From: Curtobacterium sp. TC1 | GTDB taxonomy: Bacteria; Actinomycetota; Actinomycetes; Actinomycetales; Microbacteriaceae | Reading direction: 5' to 3' | Assembly: GCF_019844075.1 (NCBI RefSeq) | Contig: NZ_CP081964.1 | Location: 3,286,001-3,350,000 of the forward strand | DNA: 64,000 bases | In this document: one piece after another, positions 37,277 to 44,797 of the stretch | Numbering within the stretch: position 1 is the first letter of the stretch | Layout: each line of letters starts with the position of its first letter | Notes under the pieces: generated by a model | Told to the model about the DNA's origin: nothing | The model's input: only the letters and a program-made list of their open reading frames with translations | Databases searched by the model: none | Translations under genes and position numbers: made by a program

Positions 37277-37459
37277 CTACTGCTCCCCGTCCTCTTCCGG
37301 GTTGAAGTGCGAGTCGTCCCCGACGTGCCCAGCGGCCAGGCCGTCCGGGTCGTTGGGGATGGTGTTGTCGTCGCCGAGCCCGCCCGGCTTCTCGGTGCCC
37401 TCGGAGTCGTTCACGGGGGCCTTGGTGTCGTCGTCGTGCGTGTTGCTGCTGTCGGTCAT
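37277..37459 (-). CDS. Small acidic hydrophilic protein
   Basis: 60 residues, rich in Asp, Glu, Gly and Asn (MTDSSNTHDDDTK... HFNPEEDGEQ), no hydrophobic core, probably disordered. The ATG has a GGAGC site. Similar short acidic proteins are common in actinobacteria and have no known role. Confidence 0.7.
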   Translation of the reverse strand: MTDSSNTHDDDTKAPVNDSEGTEKPGGLGDDNTIPNDPDGLAAGHVGDDSHFNPEEDGEQ

Positions 37460-37573
37460 GGTCTGCTCCAGTGCAGTGGTCGAACCGAGGGCGACGCCCC
37501 CGGCAGGTGCTGACCTCGGACGCTACGTGTCGCTGCTCGGAATCAGGTGACACGGCGCCGCGCGCTCGGTAGA

Positions 37574-37584
37574 TTGTTCAACAA
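37574..37584. promoter_or_regulatory. GntR-type operator upstream of pxpA
   Basis: TTGTTCAACAA, an odd-centred palindrome, overlaps a -10-like TAGATT (37570-37575). The same word occurs at 44053-44063 before the DUF969 permease and next to a GntR gene. Likely the binding site of that GntR protein. Confidence 0.65.
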
Positions 37585-37606
37585 CCCGTGACGACAGGGA
37601 GTCCCC

Positions 37607-38377
37607 GTGACGACGATCGACCTGAACAGCGACCTCGGCGAGGGCTTCGGCGCCTGGACCATGGGCGACGACGCCGCGATGCTCGACGTCGTGTCGAGCG
37701 CGAACATCGCTTGCGGATTCCACGCCGGCGACCCGACGATCATGCTCGCCACCGCCCGCGCCGCCGCCGAGCGCGGTGTCGCCATCGGGGCGCACGTCGC
37801 CTACCGCGACCTCGCCGGCTTCGGTCGCCGACCGGTGCACGTCACCGCGGACGAACTCCACGCCGACGTCGTGCACCAGCTCGGCGCGATGGCCGCCACG
37901 GCACGGGTCGCCGGAACAGCGGTCACCTACGTCAAGCCCCACGGCGCCCTGTACAACACCGCGTGCGCCGACCCGGTCCAGGCCGAGGCCGTGGTCCGGG
38001 CGATCGCCGACGTGGACGGCTCGCTGGCGGTGCTCGCGCTGCCGGGTTCCGAACTCCTGCTCGCCGCCGAACGCCACGGGCTCCGTGCGGTGGCGGAGTC
38101 TTTCGCCGACCGCGCGTACGAACCCGACGGCTCCCTGGTGTCCCGCAGCAAGCCGGGCTCCGTGCTCCACGACCCGGACGAGGTCGCCGCCCGGGTCCTC
38201 CGCATGGTCACCGAGGGCGTCGCGACCGCCGTCGACGGCTCCGAGCTGCGGGTCCGCGCCGACTCCGTCTGCGTCCACGGCGACTCCCCCGGTGCCGTCG
38301 CGATGGCCCGTGCGATCCGAGCGACCCTGACCGAGCACGGTGTCACGATCGCGCCGTTCGCACCCGCCGCACCGTGA
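37607..38377 (+). CDS. pxpA: 5-oxoprolinase subunit A (LamB/YcsF family)
   Basis: 256 residues with the family signature [12 protein letters not shown], then [15 protein letters not shown] and VKPHGALYN. With PxpB and PxpC it forms the ATP-dependent 5-oxoprolinase that opens 5-oxoproline to glutamate. The GTG has an AGGGAG ribosome site. Its stop overlaps the pxpB start. Confidence 0.95.
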
Positions 38378-39006
38378 CCGGCGTGGACTTCCGGCCCGCC
38401 GGCCGCGCCGCCCTGCTCGCCACCTTCGACTCCCTGCAGCAGGTCGTCGCGTTCCGTACGGGGCTGGCCGAGGCTCGGCTGCGGGGCCTGACCGAGGTCG
38501 TGTCGGGCGCACGGACGCTGCTGCTCCGCTTCGACCCGGCGACGACCGACGCCACACGGCTCCGCAGCGCACTCGAACGGGTCGCACCCGCCACCGACGC
38601 CGATGCGGCGAGCGCCGCGGACCCCCTCGTCATCCCGGTGGTCTACGACGGCGAGGACCTCGACCAGGTCACCGCCCTGACGGGCATGGACCGCGACCGG
38701 TTGATCGCGTGGCACACCGGCCAGCTCTGGACGAGCGCGTTCTGTGGCTTCGCCCCGGGCTTCAGCTACCTCACCGGCACCGAACCGTCGCTCGACCTGC
38801 CACGCCGGAGCGCGTCGCGCACCGCTGTGCCGAGCGGCGCCGTGGCCCTCGCGGGCGAGTTCAGCGCCGTCTACCCTCGCGTCTCCCCCGGCGGCTGGCA
38901 GCTCATCGGCCGCACCGACGTGCCGATGTGGTCGCTCGACCACGAACCGCCGGCACGGGCACCGGCCGGCACACGGGTTCGGTTCGTCGACGCGGGTGCG
39001 GCATGA
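38374..39006 (+). CDS. pxpB: 5-oxoprolinase subunit B (KipI-like allophanate hydrolase fold)
   Basis: 210 residues with [32 protein letters not shown] and the [14 protein letters not shown] end typical of subunit B/KipI. The GTG start overlaps the pxpA stop (GTGA) and its own stop overlaps pxpC (ATGA), so the three subunits are coupled. Confidence 0.94.
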
Positions 39007-39887
39007 GTGCGCTGACCGTCCTGCAGGTCGGCTTCGGCGTGGCGACGCAGGACCTGGGACGGCCGGGCTTCAGCGACATGGGGCTCGGTGCAGCGGGCGC
39101 CGCCGACCGGGGGTCCGCAGCACTGGCCAACCGGCTGGTCGGCAACCGTCCGGATGCGGCTGTCCTGGAGGCCCTGCTCGGCTCCGTCACGCTGCGCGCC
39201 GACGCGTACGTGGTCGCCGCCACCGCCGGGGCCGCCTGCCCGGTCGAGATCGAGCGGGCAGACGGCCGGGTCCGCGGAGCGGCCTCGCACGAGGTCCTGA
39301 TGCTCACCCCGGGCGACACGCTCCGGATCGGTACCGCCACCACCGGGCTGCGCTCGTACATCGCGGTGCTCGGCGGGTTCGCGGTCGAGCCCGTGCTCGG
39401 CAGCCGCTCGTGGGACGCACTCGCACGCCTCGGGCCGCCCCCGTTGTCGTCGGGCGACGTCCTGCCGATCGGCGATGCCCGCGCCTCGTGGCCGATCGTC
39501 GACGCCGTCCCGCAACCCGACGAGCGCTGGCCGGACGACCCCGTGGTGCTCGAAGCGACCGCCGGACCCCGCGACGACTGGTTCGCACCGGGGTGGCGCG
39601 ACACCCTGACCGGCCAGGACTTCACCGTCGGGTCGGACAGCGACCGCGTGGGTGTCCGCACCACGGCCCCGCAGCCACTCGTCCGCGCCGTGACGGTCGA
39701 GTTGCCGAGCGAAGGGGTCGAGACCGGATCACTGCAGGTCCCGCCGGAGGGCTTCCCGGTGCTGTTCCTCGCCGACCACCCGGTGACGGGCGGCTACCCC
39801 GTCGTGGCGGTCCTCACAGCGGAGTCGGTCGACCGTGCGGCGCAGCTCCGTCCGGGCGACACCATCCGCTTCCGGCTCGTCGGGTGA
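39003..39887 (+). CDS. pxpC: 5-oxoprolinase subunit C (KipA-like)
   Basis: 294 residues with the subunit C pattern: VATQDLGRPGFSDMGLGAAGAAD start, RSYIAVLGGFAVEPVLGSRS, and LFLADHPVTGGYPVVAVL near the C-terminus. Completes the PxpABC complex. Possible sources of its substrate in this window are the gamma-glutamylcyclotransferase-like protein and the DUF969/DUF979 permease. Confidence 0.94.
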   Translation: MSALTVLQVGFGVATQDLGRPGFSDMGLGAAGAADRGSAALANRLVGNRPDAAVLEALLGSVTLRADAYVVAATAGAACPVEIERADGRVRGAASHEVLMLTPGDTLRIGTATTGLRSYIAVLGGFAVEPVLGSRSWDALARLGPPPLSSGDVLPIGDARASWPIVDAVPQPDERWPDDPVVLEATAGPRDDWFAPGWRDTLTGQDFTVGSDSDRVGVRTTAPQPLVRAVTVELPSEGVETGSLQVPPEGFPVLFLADHPVTGGYPVVAVLTAESVDRAAQLRPGDTIRFRLVG

Positions 39888-39937
39888 CGGCGGGCCTGCA
39901 CACCGATCCGGAACAGGTCGGCGCCGCCGCGGGTTGA

Positions 39938-39974
39938 GTCGGACACTGCCGACCAGTTGCGTCGGACTGCCGAC
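39938..39974. repeat. Two GTCGG/CCGAC inverted repeats before the monooxygenase gene
   Basis: GTCGGACACTGCCGAC (39938-39953) and GTCGGACTGCCGAC (39961-39974) are near copies, differing by two bases in the centre, ending 14 nt before the ATG at 39989. They could be a tandem operator or short hairpins in the leader. Confidence 0.4.
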
Positions 39975-39988
39975 GAAAGGTGCACCAC

Positions 39989-40291
39989 ATGTCGATCACC
40001 GTCCTGCTCGATGTCCAGTTCCGGAGCGACGTCCCCACCGACACCGTCGAGGCGGCGATCCGCGAGACGCTCGCGCAGACCCGCGCCTTCGACGGCTGCG
40101 AGTCCCTCGAGGTCCTGGTCGACGACGCCGACCCGACGCGCATGGTCGTCGTCGAGTCCTGGACGAGCGGGGCCGCCCACGACGCCTACGAGGCGTGGCG
40201 GGCGACCCCGGACGGTGCCGCAGCGATCGGGCCGATCGTCGCCGCTCCGCCCGTCGCGCGGACGTTCGAGCGGACGATCGCGCTCGGCTGA
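39989..40291 (+). CDS. ABM-domain (antibiotic biosynthesis monooxygenase-like) protein
   Basis: 100 residues with the dimeric ferredoxin-like ABM fold pattern: TVLLDVQFRSDV, AFDGCESLEVLVDDADP, MVVVESWTSGAAHDAYEAWR. Small cofactor-free oxygenases or heme/quinone-related proteins use this fold. The ATG has a GAAAGG site. Its end converges with GH16, 11 bp apart. Confidence 0.85.
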   Translation: MSITVLLDVQFRSDVPTDTVEAAIRETLAQTRAFDGCESLEVLVDDADPTRMVVVESWTSGAAHDAYEAWRATPDGAAAIGPIVAAPPVARTFERTIALG

Positions 40292-40302
40292 CCGGGTGTG
40301 GG

Positions 40303-41061
40303 TCAGCCCGTGTACTCGTACGTGCTGACCCAGTCGATGTTCAGGTGCCCGGCTGCACCCCAGTTGCCGACCTGGAACATGTACCGGTGCGCGGTCTTCG
40401 GCACGTTCGACGTGACCGTCTTGATCACCTTGCCGTCGAGCAGGTACTGCACCGACTTACCGGGGATCCACTCGACCGAGTAGACGTGCCAGCTGCGCCA
40501 GGTCACCCCGGTGCTCATGCTCGTCGAGTTCGCCTCCTGCCCGGCGACCATCGAGTGGTGGTGGAGCATCGGCGAGCCCTCGAAGTTCGCCTCCGGGTAG
40601 TCGATCTCGCCGTCCGACCAGACGTCGGACGACGGCCACAGCATGAACGCCGCACCGTTCCCGTCGCCGCCGGTGGCCTTCGCGCGGACGCTGAACTTGC
40701 CGCCCACGTGCGACCACGCGCCGTTCGGGGTCCCGAAGGTCCCGGCGGCGCCGTGCTTGCCGTCGAGCGTGACGTCCATGGAGCCGTCGCGGGCGCTGAC
40801 CTGCGAGCCCGAGTAGTACGTGCCGCCGGTCCCGTCCGGGTAGGGCTGCCACGAGTTCGCGTAGGTCTTCGCGAACGGTCCGTTCGCCGACGCCGCCTTG
40901 CTGAAGTTCTCGACGAAGGTCTGCTTGAACTTGCCGACGTTGCCGACCGGGGCGGTGACCCCCGCGTAGGCAACGGTTCCCGCTCCGAGCGGTGCCGCCA
41001 CGACGACGGCTCCGATGAGTGCGGCGATGAGTGCTGTCCGCCTGATCCTGCGGTGCTGCAT
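40303..41061 (-). CDS. Secreted glycoside hydrolase family 16 enzyme
   Basis: 252 residues. Signal peptide to about Ala33 (VAYA). The GH16 active-site motif is EIDYPE with nucleophile Glu152, Asp154 and acid/base Glu157. GH16 enzymes cut beta-1,3/1,4-glucans, galactans or xyloglucan. A single compact domain without a carbohydrate-binding module. A GGGAG site precedes the ATG, and a TAGCCT -10 (41138-41133, minus strand) gives a 70-nt leader. Confidence 0.9.
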   Translation of the reverse strand: MQHRRIRRTALIAALIGAVVVAAPLGAGTVAYAGVTAPVGNVGKFKQTFVENFSKAASANGPFAKTYANSWQPYPDGTGGTYYSGSQVSARDGSMDVTLDGKHGAAGTFGTPNGAWSHVGGKFSVRAKATGGDGNGAAFMLWPSSDVWSDGEIDYPEANFEGSPMLHHHSMVAGQEANSTSMSTGVTWRSWHVYSVEWIPGKSVQYLLDGKVIKTVTSNVPKTAHRYMFQVGNWGAAGHLNIDWVSTYEYTG

Positions 41062-41146
41062 GTGTCACTCCCTGCTGTGACTGGTGGCACCCGTTCCCCT
41101 CGGGTACCCAGCCGGATCTCGGCTGCGCACCGAGGCTAGGTGCGTT

Positions 41147-41161
41147 CTGCAACCGATGCAG
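41147..41161. promoter_or_regulatory. Candidate operator in the GH16 promoter
   Basis: CTGCAACCGATGCAG has perfect 5-base arms and lies between the -35 and -10 positions of the GH16 promoter. It could bind a LacI-type regulator; none is encoded nearby. Confidence 0.35.
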
Positions 41162-41211
41162 GGGGTTGACAGCAGCACGCCGAACCGGCGACCATGCGCC
41201 TCGTTCGAGGG

Positions 41212-42271
41212 TCAGCGTGCGGCGTGCTCGCGTGCTTCCATGGCGTCCCAGGCGAAGCTCGCGAGCCAGTGCGTGGAGTAGTACTCCTCGCCGACACTGG
41301 CGGCCAGACCCGAGGCCAGCAGCCGGTCCGCCGCCTCGTCGAGCAGGCTCGCGAGCCCGTCATCGTCGAGCTCACCGGCGCGCAGGGCGTCCGCGATGCG
41401 CCGGGCCGATCCCGCTCGCGACAGGTCGAGCCCGAACAGGTGCACCTACCTGCTGCGGGTCGTTCTCGTCGCGGACCACGGTCGACTGCAGGATCGCATC
41501 GCCCGACCGCACCTGGGCGAAGAAGCCGTCCGACCACGTCGCGAACTCGGCCGGGGTCAGCACTGCCCGCATCAGGTCGGCCTCGGCCAGCCCGGCCGAC
41601 AGGAAGTCGTGTCCGCTGCGCTCCCAGGCGAACGGCCAGCCGGCGTCCTCGCCGAACCACTCGCGCGCGGCACGCTCCACCGTCGCGGCGAGCTCGTCGC
41701 GCCCGAGCGACCGTGCGGCCTCGAGCACGAGCAGCAGCCCGAAGGCCGAGTTCGAGTGCACGCCGTGCCGGACGGGGTGGGCGGCGCCGTCGACCCAGCG
41801 GGTGACGAGGTCCTCGAGCACGTCGACGACGGGCACGAACCCCGGGGCGAGCTCCCGGATCGCCGGGACGTCCGACGCGGAGACCTCGGCGGCGAGCTTC
41901 GCGAGCCAGGCCCACCCGTAGGGGCGCTCGTAGTGCGGCGTCGTGTGGAAGTAGGCGGCTTCCGTCGCCAGGTGATCCGCGCTCAGGTGGGCCCGCAGGA
42001 TCGTGGTGAGCCGGGCCTCCAGGTCGGCCGACAGGCCGTGCGCGACCAGACGCGCTGCGAGCCAGTGCATGTGCACGGACGAGTGCCAGTCGTAGGACGT
42101 CGCGAAGGCGGGGTGCAGCTCGACCGGCAGTGCCCGGTCGTCCGGTCCGGACGTCGTGTGGTGCGCCGCGTACGGGTACTCGCGCGTGGTGTTCTCGGCA
42201 GCGACGGCCGCGAAGCGGTCGGCCCAGGCGGCCCGGGTCAGGTCGAGCGGGGCAGCATCAGAAAGCGACAA
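41212..42271 (-). pseudogene. DUF2891 family protein, broken by a 4-bp duplication
   Basis: The frame from 42271 reads a DUF2891 protein (PVELHPAFATSYDWHSSVHMHW, HSNSAFGLLLVLEAAR, GHDFLSAGLAEADLM) up to RDENDPQQ, then goes out of frame. The rest (VHLFGLDLSRAGSARRIAD ... YYSTHWLASFA) continues in another frame from 41445. At 41444-41451 the sequence ACCTACCT is a tandem duplication; one copy fewer restores DPQQVHLFGLDL. The start is probably TTG at 42271, overlapping the DUF979 end by 14 bp. DUF2891 function is unknown; the operon suggests a link to 5-oxoproline or peptide use. Confidence 0.82.
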
Positions 42272-43328
42272 GGTACATGACTCCCATGTTGACGACGAGC
42301 AGGATGGCGGCGGTCGGGATCTGCGCCTTGATCGGGCCGTACTTGTCCCGCATCTCGAGCAGGGCAGCCGGAACCAGGTTGAAGTTCGCGGCCATCGGCG
42401 TCACCAGCGTGCCGCAGAAGCCGGCGAGCATGCCGATGGCGAAGATCGCGGCGGGGTTGCCGTCGAAGCCCTGCACCAGGACGGGCCATCCGATCGCGGC
42501 CGTCATGATCGGGAAGGCGGCGAACGCGTTGCCCATGATGATCGTGAAGAGCGCCATGCCGAGGCAGTAGACGACCACCGCGGCGATCAGCGAGCCGCCG
42601 GGCAGGATCGACTTGATGATGGTGCCGACGGCATCGCCGACCCCGGCCTGGGTGAAGACGATGCCGAGGGTGGAGAGCATCTGCGGCAGCAGCGCTGCCC
42701 ACCCGATGGCCTGCAGCAGTCGACCGCCCTCCCGGATGGGCGTCGCGATCCTCGGCGGACGCAGGACGAACACCGCGACGACGACGGCGAGCACCGAACC
42801 GATGCCCAGGCCGGTCAGCGTCGCACTGCCCTCGGCGAGCAGGGGCGCACCGCCGATCGAGACGAGCGGCCCGAGCGTCGCGACGAGCACGGCGACCACG
42901 GGCACGACCAGGGCCGGGATGAAGAGCTTGTTGCTGAACCGGGTGGCGAACGCCGCGCGTTCGTCGGGGGTCGTGGTGGCGAGGACGCTCGTGCTGGCGG
43001 ACGGCTTCGTGGCGGCGGCGGTGGGTTCGGCCGGGCCGGTCTCCGCCCCTGTGCCGGCACCGGGGATGCTGGCGACCCGTGTGCGGCTGGTCGTCCCGGT
43101 GAACCCGAGTCCGGCGAGCGCGACCATCACCAGGACGGCGACGCCGAGCACCCACGACGGCGCGGTCTTCGCGGCGACGAACGTGCCGTAGAAGAACGAG
43201 ACCCCGAGGATCCCCCAGAACGCCGCGTTGCCGAGTCGCTTGGCGTGCGACGTGTCCGTGACGATGAGGACGGCCACCGCGATGAAGAACGCGCCGATGA
43301 GCCAGTAGAGCCATTCGCTGGTGATCAC
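42258..43328 (-). CDS. DUF979 permease subunit
   Basis: 356 residues with about nine helices, including a hydrophilic Thr/Ala-rich loop (about 85-125). Family marks: MGNAFAAFPIMTAAIGWPVLVQ and MLAGFCGTLVTPMAANFNLVPAALLEM. DUF979 and DUF969 are paired membrane proteins often found with 5-oxoprolinase or pyroglutamyl peptidase genes (from general knowledge). The GTG overlaps the DUF969 stop (GTGA). Confidence 0.85.
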   Translation of the reverse strand: MITSEWLYWLIGAFFIAVAVLIVTDTSHAKRLGNAAFWGILGVSFFYGTFVAAKTAPSWVLGVAVLVMVALAGLGFTGTTSRTRVASIPGAGTGAETGPAEPTAAATKPSASTSVLATTTPDERAAFATRFSNKLFIPALVVPVVAVLVATLGPLVSIGGAPLLAEGSATLTGLGIGSVLAVVVAVFVLRPPRIATPIREGGRLLQAIGWAALLPQMLSTLGIVFTQAGVGDAVGTIIKSILPGGSLIAAVVVYCLGMALFTIIMGNAFAAFPIMTAAIGWPVLVQGFDGNPAAIFAIGMLAGFCGTLVTPMAANFNLVPAALLEMRDKYGPIKAQIPTAAILLVVNMGVMYLVAF

Positions 43329-44032
43329 GCTGCAGCTCCCTGCGTCGGGGCGTCGACGCGGGCGTCGGCGGCCATCTTGTCGAGCGTGCGGTCGAACAGC
43401 AGCAGTCGCGTGCCGTGGACCAGGAGCGCGGCGATGCCCGTCGGGATCGCCCACAGCGCCAGGTCGATGGGCTCGAGCGACAGACCGTAGGTGGCATCGA
43501 CGAAGGTCGTGATGAGCAGGATCGAGCCGACGGCGACGAACACGTCCTCGCCGAAGAAGACCCCGACGGTGTCGGACGACGCCGAGTAGCCCTTGATCTT
43601 CTCGCGCATCCGCTCGTCGATCCGGCCGTACTTCTTGATCGCCGCACCTTCGGCCATCGGGTGCACGAGGGGCCGCACGGTCTGCGCCGGCCCGCCGATG
43701 CTGGTCAGGCCGACCGCGGCCGTGACCTGCCGGATGGCCAGGTAGCCCGCCAGCAGACGACCCGTCGTGAGCTTGTCGAGCTTCGCGATCAGGCGCTTGG
43801 CCTGGTCCTGCAGCCCGTAGCGCTCGATCAGGCCGATGACGGGCAGGACGAGCGCGAAGGTCGTGACGGACCGGCTCGACGCGAAACCGTCGCCGAACGC
43901 AGTGAGGATGCCGACGGGACCGATCCCGCCGATGGCCGCGGTGACGATGCCCGCGACGGTCACGACGAGCAGCGCGTTGATGCGCAACGCGAACCCGATG
44001 ATGACGACGGCGACGCCGATGAGGACGAACAT
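43325..44032 (-). CDS. DUF969 permease subunit
   Basis: About 235 residues with five or six helices: FVLIGVAVVIIGFALRINALLVV at the start, RQVTAAVGLTSIGGPAQTVRPLVHPMAEGAA in the middle. The ATG at 44032 (MFVLIG) suits the family; an ATG at 44053 lies inside the operator palindrome. Probably forms a carrier with DUF979, with 5-oxoproline as likely substrate given the shared operator with pxpABC. Confidence 0.83.
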   Translation of the reverse strand: MFVLIGVAVVIIGFALRINALLVVTVAGIVTAAIGGIGPVGILTAFGDGFASSRSVTTFALVLPVIGLIERYGLQDQAKRLIAKLDKLTTGRLLAGYLAIRQVTAAVGLTSIGGPAQTVRPLVHPMAEGAAIKKYGRIDERMREKIKGYSASSDTVGVFFGEDVFVAVGSILLITTFVDATYGLSLEPIDLALWAIPTGIAALLVHGTRLLLFDRTLDKMAADARVDAPTQGAAA

Positions 44033-44051
44033 GCGGGACAGTCTGGCCCGC

Positions 44052-44064
44052 ATTGTTCAACAAT
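44052..44064. promoter_or_regulatory. GntR-type operator upstream of the DUF969/DUF979 operon
   Basis: ATTGTTCAACAAT is a perfect 13-bp palindrome, 20 nt before the DUF969 start and 89 nt before the divergent GntR gene. Its 11-base core also precedes pxpA (37574-37584). Confidence 0.7.
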
Positions 44065-44103
44065 CGCAAGAGGCTGTTCTGCTCTGTAACACGACGGTCA
44101 CAC

Positions 44104-44120
44104 GGTGCGAGGTTCGCACC
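44104..44120. promoter_or_regulatory. Inverted repeat at the gntR -35 region
   Basis: GGTGCGAGGTTCGCACC has perfect 7-base arms around GGT. It reaches the -35 area of a promoter whose -10 (CAGGAT, 44141-44146) lies 6 nt before the gntR ATG. It differs from the TTGTTCAACAA site, so a second regulator may act here. Confidence 0.4.
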
Positions 44121-44152
44121 TGCGACGCCCGAGGCCGTGTCAGGATCGGGAC

Positions 44153-44797
44153 ATGACCCGAACCGTCAGTGGTGCCGACTCGACGGCCGATCGGCTGCGC
44201 ACCATGATCGCGTCGGGCGAGTTCTCCCCCGGGGCGCAGCTGTCCGAGGAGCGGCTGAGCGACCAGCTCGGGGTGTCGCGGAACACGCTGCGCGAGGCGT
44301 TCCGGCTGCTCGCGCGCGACCGGCTCGTCGAGCACGTCTTCAACCGCGGGGTCTTCGTGCGACGCCTCTCCGCCGAGGACGTCACCGACCTCTACGCCGC
44401 CCGGCGGGTACTGGAGGAAGCCGCGGTGCGGGCGTGCACGCCGACGTCACCGGCGCTCGACGCTGCGGCCGCCGCCGTCACGACTGCGCGGGACGCCGCC
44501 GCCGCGGGCGACTGGGGCACCGTCGGCACCGCAGACATCCGGTTCCACGCCGAGCTCGTGCGCGCGGTTCCGAGCACACGGATCCACGGGCTGATGGACG
44601 GACTCCTCGCCGAGATGCGGCTGGCGTTCCTGACGGCCGACGACCCGGCGTCGTTCCACGCCGAGTTCGTGGAGCGGAACGAGGCGATCGTCGTGGCGCT
44701 GCGCGCCGGCGACCAGTCCAGGGCCTCAGCACTGCTGGCGGACTACCTCGACGATGCGGAGCGGACGCTGCGGGTCGCCGCGGGCGCGGCAGGCTGA
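44153..44797 (+). CDS. GntR/FadR family regulator (FCD domain)
   Basis: 214 residues: winged-helix (STADRLRTMIASGEFSPG, LSEERLSDQLGVSRNTLREAFRLL, VEHVFNRGVFVRRL) and an FCD ligand domain with the metal-ligand pattern DIRFHAELV. FCD proteins sense small carboxylates, which suits 5-oxoproline. The ATG at 44153 lies 6 nt after CAGGAT. Divergent from the permease operon and the likely binder of TTGTTCAACAA. Half of the terminator repeat (GACGGGAGGCCCGG, 44796-44809) overlaps its stop. Confidence 0.88.
   Translation: MTRTVSGADSTADRLRTMIASGEFSPGAQLSEERLSDQLGVSRNTLREAFRLLARDRLVEHVFNRGVFVRRLSAEDVTDLYAARRVLEEAAVRACTPTSPALDAAAAAVTTARDAAAAGDWGTVGTADIRFHAELVRAVPSTRIHGLMDGLLAEMRLAFLTADDPASFHAEFVERNEAIVVALRAGDQSRASALLADYLDDAERTLRVAAGAAG

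Follow-up and report, generated by a model that had tools for sequence, protein, structure and literature searches.

A predicted PxpR regulon of Curtobacterium sp. TC1 with DUF969/DUF979 in the place of the transporter PxpT

Described systems and the locus of Curtobacterium sp. TC1

The closest described counterpart of the locus considered here, which lies in a stretch of 64,000 nucleotides (hereafter the window) of the genome of Curtobacterium sp. TC1 (contig NZ_CP081964.1, positions 3,286,001 to 3,350,000), is the PxpR regulon of Corynebacterium glutamicum. In this bacterium, the GntR repressor PxpR was reported to control pxpTABC through a 17-bp inverted repeat with an inner 13 bp of ATTGTTCAACAAT, mutation or deletion of this operator raised reporter expression 6.5-fold, the KD of the repressor for 5-oxoproline is 726 nM, and the cells need the NRAMP-type transporter PxpT to grow on this compound (PMC13274462, 2026); according to the same work, RegPrecise had already predicted the site. 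Other work has dealt with the orphan families DUF969 and DUF979. DUF979 was assigned to the ion transporter clan, as a single-repeat protein whose predicted partner is DUF969, and 5-oxoproline transport was proposed for both (PMC11467057, 2024; Niehaus et al. 2017 cited there), in a protein prediction for Clostridioides difficile that concerns the same two Pfam families as the window and whose accessible text discusses no regulator. In a model of Bacillus megaterium, too, the pair transports 5-oxoproline (PMC6904757), a list of halotolerance-linked clusters holds DUF969, DUF979 and DUF2891 together with an oxoprolinase-family gene (PMC10040529), and a Campylobacter jejuni mutant of cj0552-4 (DUF969, DUF979 and DUF2891) lost the use of 5-oxoproline as a nitrogen source, a result called preliminary (PMC12795558, 2026).

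Our analysis makes it very likely that the window carries a PxpR regulon where DUF969/DUF979 stands in for PxpT, and Curtobacterium sp. TC1 would probably import and use 5-oxoproline only when this compound is present. PxpR with its operator and DUF969/DUF979 as a 5-oxoproline carrier are each already published, and their union in one regulon was not found in the open-licence literature, a search outside of which stood RegPrecise, where DUF969 may be listed. Such a union joins a repressor that responds to 5-oxoproline, and whose operator is proven, to an orphan two-gene transporter for which the evidence is only preliminary.

As in C. glutamicum, the window locus comprises PxpABC, a divergent GntR/FCD regulator and the operator core ATTGTTCAACAAT. 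Unlike that system, it has DUF969, DUF979 and DUF2891 and no NRAMP-type PxpT, and its two operators serve two units and not one operon. The C. jejuni cluster cj0552-cj0554 brings together the same DUF969-DUF979-DUF2891 families as the window, but in the accessible text of that report no PxpR operator is described (PMC12795558).

Operators, promoters and genes of the window

The palindrome TTGTTCAACAA occurs exactly at 37574-37584 and 44053-44063 of the window, the same two places given in a preliminary description of this DNA. Among 100 shuffles of the window, the word with up to one mismatch had a mean of 0.02 matches and a maximum of 1, and in the whole genome of 4,160,677 bases it is found exactly at these two places only, with 11 further places at one mismatch and no exact match for the reversed control word. 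The many unrelated matches that the preliminary description had feared as an argument against its regulon were not seen. Its idea that the word would precede pxp, DUF969 and pcp genes held for pxpA and DUF969, but no link with pcp appeared, and a wider regulon including pcp or other genes was rejected for want of a third exact site.

Operator 2 (44052..44064, minus strand) is a perfect palindrome over 13 bp, as previously described, and identical to the published 13-mer ATTGTTCAACAAT; operator 1 (ATTGTTCAACAAC, 37573..37585, plus strand) is palindromic at 12 of its 13 bp and differs from that 13-mer by one base. Compared by eye with the published C. glutamicum 17-mer, the window sites are alike at 15 and 14 positions. 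The two palindromes, of the form TTGTTSAACAA, can be predicted with considerable confidence to be operators of the adjoining GntR/FCD protein. This regulator (44153..44797, plus strand), divergent from DUF969, shows Pfam GntR and FCD domains at residues 10-69 and 79-200, compared with 11-69 and 79-205 in C. glutamicum PxpR (PMC13274462), and its domains, its place in a group of 15 members and its position beside the pxp genes identify it as a PxpR orthologue. When a profile of the 15 regulators was compared with PDB, the chain 2hs5 matched at 1.2e-65 and the next one at 7.2e-21, which points to 2hs5 as probably a solved PxpR orthologue; its deposited name, 'putative transcriptional regulator GntR', differs in giving no function.

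A consensus scan of 37400-44400 gave a single promoter, GTGACA-17-TAGATT (37547..37575, plus strand), located before pxpA. Its -10 box TAGATT (37570-37575) overlaps operator 1, which places a PxpR-type operator within the pxpABC promoter, in agreement with the earlier reading of the site. For DUF969, we propose a promoter at 44040..44069 (minus strand) composed of TTGCGA (44069-44064), 18 bp containing the operator and CAGACT (44045-44040), followed by 7 nt to the ATG; the sigma-70 scan of the same region did not report it. The DUF969 transcript is probably leaderless, with the operator inside its promoter. An alternative start of DUF969 at 44053, within the operator, was rejected, as the upstream ATG is not conserved, for example at loci L061 and L064.

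The identities of pxpA, pxpB, pxpC, DUF969, DUF979 and the adjoining GntR+FCD gene, as first proposed, were borne out by Pfam. The three 5-oxoprolinase subunits are encoded in one operon of overlapping genes on the plus strand: pxpA (37607..38377; LamB_YcsF, 1.1e-101; NCBIfam NF003814 PxpA above cut-off), pxpB (38374..39006, overlapping pxpA; CT_C_D, 2e-58) and pxpC (39003..39887, overlapping pxpB; CT_A_B, 3.4e-75). Alongside them, on the minus strand, we find the paired genes of the predicted carrier, DUF969 (43325..44032, ATG at 44032; 1.7e-84 over residues 1-217) and DUF979 (42258..43328; 1.1e-107), whose GTG start overlaps the DUF969 stop. DUF979 is followed on the same strand by DUF2891 (about 41212-42271; 6e-77 for its first part), which completes the carrier operon as its third gene and is separated from pxpC by about 1.3 kb. 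The initial proposal of one regulon split by about 2.5 kb of unrelated genes is thus supported as to the regulon, but the intervening stretch includes this operon member.

According to the mechanism that we propose, the GntR/FCD protein would bind both palindromes and repress both units; the operator overlaps the -10 box at pxpA and sits between the -35 and -10 elements of the probably leaderless promoter at DUF969. Binding of 5-oxoproline to the repressor would open both units, DUF969 and DUF979, as two half-transporters of the ion-transporter fold, would import the compound, and PxpABC would hydrolyse it to glutamate with ATP; DUF2891 is the alpha/alpha-barrel protein of the DUF969 operon. 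Operator function, repression and binding of 5-oxoproline have been demonstrated for PxpR of C. glutamicum, and the loss of 5-oxoproline use for the C. jejuni mutant in DUF969, DUF979 and DUF2891.

Conservation in the genus and the family

Observations made directly in the genomes concern the sites, the identity of the genes, their orthology by sequence and place, and their co-occurrence. Among 66 genomes of the genus, DUF969 was found in 37, pxpA in 55 and the exact word in 41, and loci were compared for all 36 other DUF969 genomes and, as one pxpA locus each, for 18 genomes with pxpA and no DUF969. All 37 DUF969 genomes carry one exact copy of the word 20 nt upstream of the DUF969 ATG and a second one before pxpA (at 18-24 nt in 36 genomes and 89 nt in one), together with the regulator and DUF2891; one genome (G182) has these elements on two different contigs. 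The promoter elements recur as well: T...TT overlaps the operator before pxpA in 37 of 37 loci (TA..TT in 36), and TTGnGA-18-N6-7-ATG precedes DUF969 in all of them, with the hexamer CAGACT in 35. In the 18 loci free of the cassette formed by DUF969 and the GntR gene, one stretch of 6.6-13 kb around pxpA per genome held neither a site within two mismatches nor, at E<1e-15, a match to the regulator, and the 300 bp before pxpA held no site even within three. The conservation before pxpA orthologues expected by the preliminary description was therefore observed in 37 of 37 genomes with the cassette and in none of the 18 without it. No PxpT-like NRAMP protein was detected in the 66 genomes, in a search run without a positive control whose query did find 12 loci in the family.

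These data bear on the simplest objection, that a short AT-rich word recurred by chance. In its favour, the word is at background rate away from the pxp loci: hand counts gave 83 exact words in the genus, 74 at these loci and nine elsewhere against three for the control word, and 55 in 120 genomes of the family, 11 at pxp loci and 44 elsewhere against 36 matches of the reversed word. The nine stray genus words, four of which were checked by tblastn, include one each in four genomes without DUF969 (G136, G140, G145 and G155). Set against the window shuffles, the genome count and the 20-nt distance in 37 of 37 loci, chance recurrence keeps a practically negligible probability, and it is refuted by the two-site genome count and the conservation in the genus.

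In the 120 family genomes, PxpA was present in 59 and DUF969 in four. A search scoring up to 25 candidates per genome gave 14 close relatives of the window regulator, with E values from 3.0e-60 to 9.8e-38 followed by a gap to 6.1e-25. Counting that of the window, all 15 close regulators have pxpA at a distance of at most 6 kb, and 14 of their loci show a site within two mismatches of ATTGTTSAACAAT, placed either between the regulator and carrier genes or ahead of pxpA; the fifteenth (L024) has a three-mismatch site between regulator and carrier. Among the 44 genomes that have pxpA but no close regulator, the six loci examined (L030-L035) held no site within two mismatches. The carrier at the 15 regulator loci is an NRAMP-type PxpT in 12 and DUF969/DUF979/DUF2891 in three (window, L014 and L015), so that DUF969/DUF979 would replace the transporter used by most relatives with such a regulator. 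The fixed distance of the operator before DUF969 and the replacement of PxpT offer two independent arguments for actinobacterial 5-oxoproline import by DUF969/DUF979.

A more serious alternative is that the palindrome serves another regulator and that the adjoining GntR protein has its targets elsewhere. Similar palindromes serve other GntR/FCD regulators, and operator binding by the window protein is a prediction. Against it, site and regulator are present together in 37 and absent together in 18 genus loci, they agree at the family loci examined (15 with and six of 44 without), and this word is also the operator that has been proven for the C. glutamicum regulator, in a matching gene context (PMC13274462); we regard this alternative as very improbable.

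Carriers beyond the family and points against the regulon

In a wider set of 296 genomes of the phylum, DUF969 was found in seven, that of the window among them. Two others, which are Streptomyces-like and come from a single genus of the window's class, repeat the arrangement: one locus (L244) shows pxpABC, operator, regulator, operator and DUF969/979/2891 in this order, and the other (L246) agrees with it in gene content, with sites that resemble the operator and with the regulator on another contig (L247). The other four DUF969 genomes of this set are small and belong to one family. In a collection of 84,980 genomes, the published 17-mer was found in 94 stretches, C. glutamicum being absent from them, and in 33 of these a pxpA, NRAMP or regulator match occurs no more than 400 bp away from the site, pxpA being matched in 27. 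One of the loci (L161, Pseudarthrobacter enclensis) presents a site before pxpABC, the regulator, a one-mismatch site and DUF969/979/2891.

In three other stretches the exact 17-mer stands beside a GntR relative with no pxp genes in the stretch: a Clostridia metagenome-assembled genome (L153), Azospirillum griseum (L162) and Pokkaliibacter (L206). Five Streptomyces-like loci (L251-L255) have the regulator, ATCGTTSAACGAT as a variant of the site and, a few kb off, pxpABC, but no DUF969 or NRAMP match within the stretch; another carrier may operate there.

Several observations weigh against a PxpR regulon with DUF969/DUF979 as its carrier. The genus genomes are related and the cassette state changes at least two times (bootstrap 2-3) on a PxpABC tree of 55 rows, from which G182 was left out; with so few changes, the 37 genomes do not amount to 37 independent events. 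The exact 11-mer is present at only seven of the 15 regulator loci of the family, the rest having variants. DUF969/979 also occurs in a family genome (G063, L016) that lacks pxpA and a close regulator and shows no site at the locus; in the same sense, three loci (L248-L250) fetched from the four small DUF969 genomes of the phylum gave no pxp or regulator match. As many as 61 of the 94 stretches with the 17-mer lack a pxp-type neighbour, some of them since the stored stretch ends near the site. Within the window, PxpB (TIGR00370, 106.3 bits for a cut-off of 145.55) and PxpC (145.9 of 500) score below their NCBIfam cut-offs, PxpC with both NF045499 and TIGR00724. Finally, the orthology to C. glutamicum PxpR is argued from operator, domain layout and gene context, and for Curtobacterium sp. 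TC1 itself we infer operator binding, induction and transport.

DUF2891 and a possible uptake module

The constant presence of DUF2891 in all 37 genus sets leads to a further alternative, which accepts the regulon but has DUF969/DUF979 carry a relative of 5-oxoproline (D-5-oxoproline, a 5-oxoprolyl conjugate or glutamine) or work as an exporter, with DUF2891 processing the compound and 5-oxoproline being mainly a signal. The window protein matches CJ0554 of C. jejuni (PDB 8ieu/8iev), with an all-helical fold resembling alpha/alpha-barrel lyases, glycosidases and an epimerase, a likeness that does not single out a function, and in spite of this solved structure no function for the family was found in the literature. 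This alternative gains from such a barrel in the genus sets and in the C. jejuni cluster, whose mutant had all three genes removed, so that the role of the carrier alone is not proven by it (PMC12795558). It loses from the replacement of PxpT, needed for growth on 5-oxoproline (PMC13274462), by DUF969/979, and from four of the seven DUF969 genomes of the phylum set, which have no DUF2891; we consider it unlikely. In that phylum set DUF2891 is found in nine genomes, six of them without DUF969, and its tie with DUF969 is not universal. The import of 5-oxoproline by DUF969/DUF979 under PxpR, our preferred reading, places DUF2891 in a testable pathway.

In the window itself DUF2891 is frameshifted near 41445, with its second part in another frame, and the frame is intact in 36 of 36 genus relatives; either a real mutation or a sequencing error may account for this. 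In a family genome (G053), two DUF2891 genes flank the DUF969/979/regulator cassette (L014:7479-8519 and L014:10949-11941).

More tentatively, pxpR-DUF969-DUF979-DUF2891 might form an exchangeable module of uptake and control, interchangeable with the NRAMP-type PxpT, whose gain or loss would accompany a swap of the pxpA promoter, DUF2891 then being a new enzyme acting on a compound related to 5-oxoproline. Without the module, pxpA would tend to have an operator-free, leaderless promoter TAGGTT-6-GTG, suited to metabolite repair, and with it an operator-bearing promoter and a Shine-Dalgarno-like sequence, suited to inducible catabolism. We hold this proposal as a whole to be possible, though rather doubtful. 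In this regard, DNA likeness to the window starts at 37603-37612, at the beginning of pxpA, in 16 of the 18 cassette-free loci, and at or before 37570 in 34 of 35 cassette loci with pxpA on the same contig. In 10 of the 18 cassette-free loci, the pxpA match starts no more than 14 nt away from a TAGGTT, and in eight this hexamer stands 6 nt before a GTG. These operator-free TAGGTT loci are L030, L031, L095-L098, L100-L102 and L107, and their pxpABC genes are possibly unregulated and leaderless.

A last gene of the region (39990-40289, plus strand) encodes a small protein with no Pfam or NCBIfam match. Similar DNA is found near pxpC in six of the 18 cassette-free loci (L030, L031, L100, L102, L107 and L108), and this gene may therefore belong to the pxp neighbourhood.

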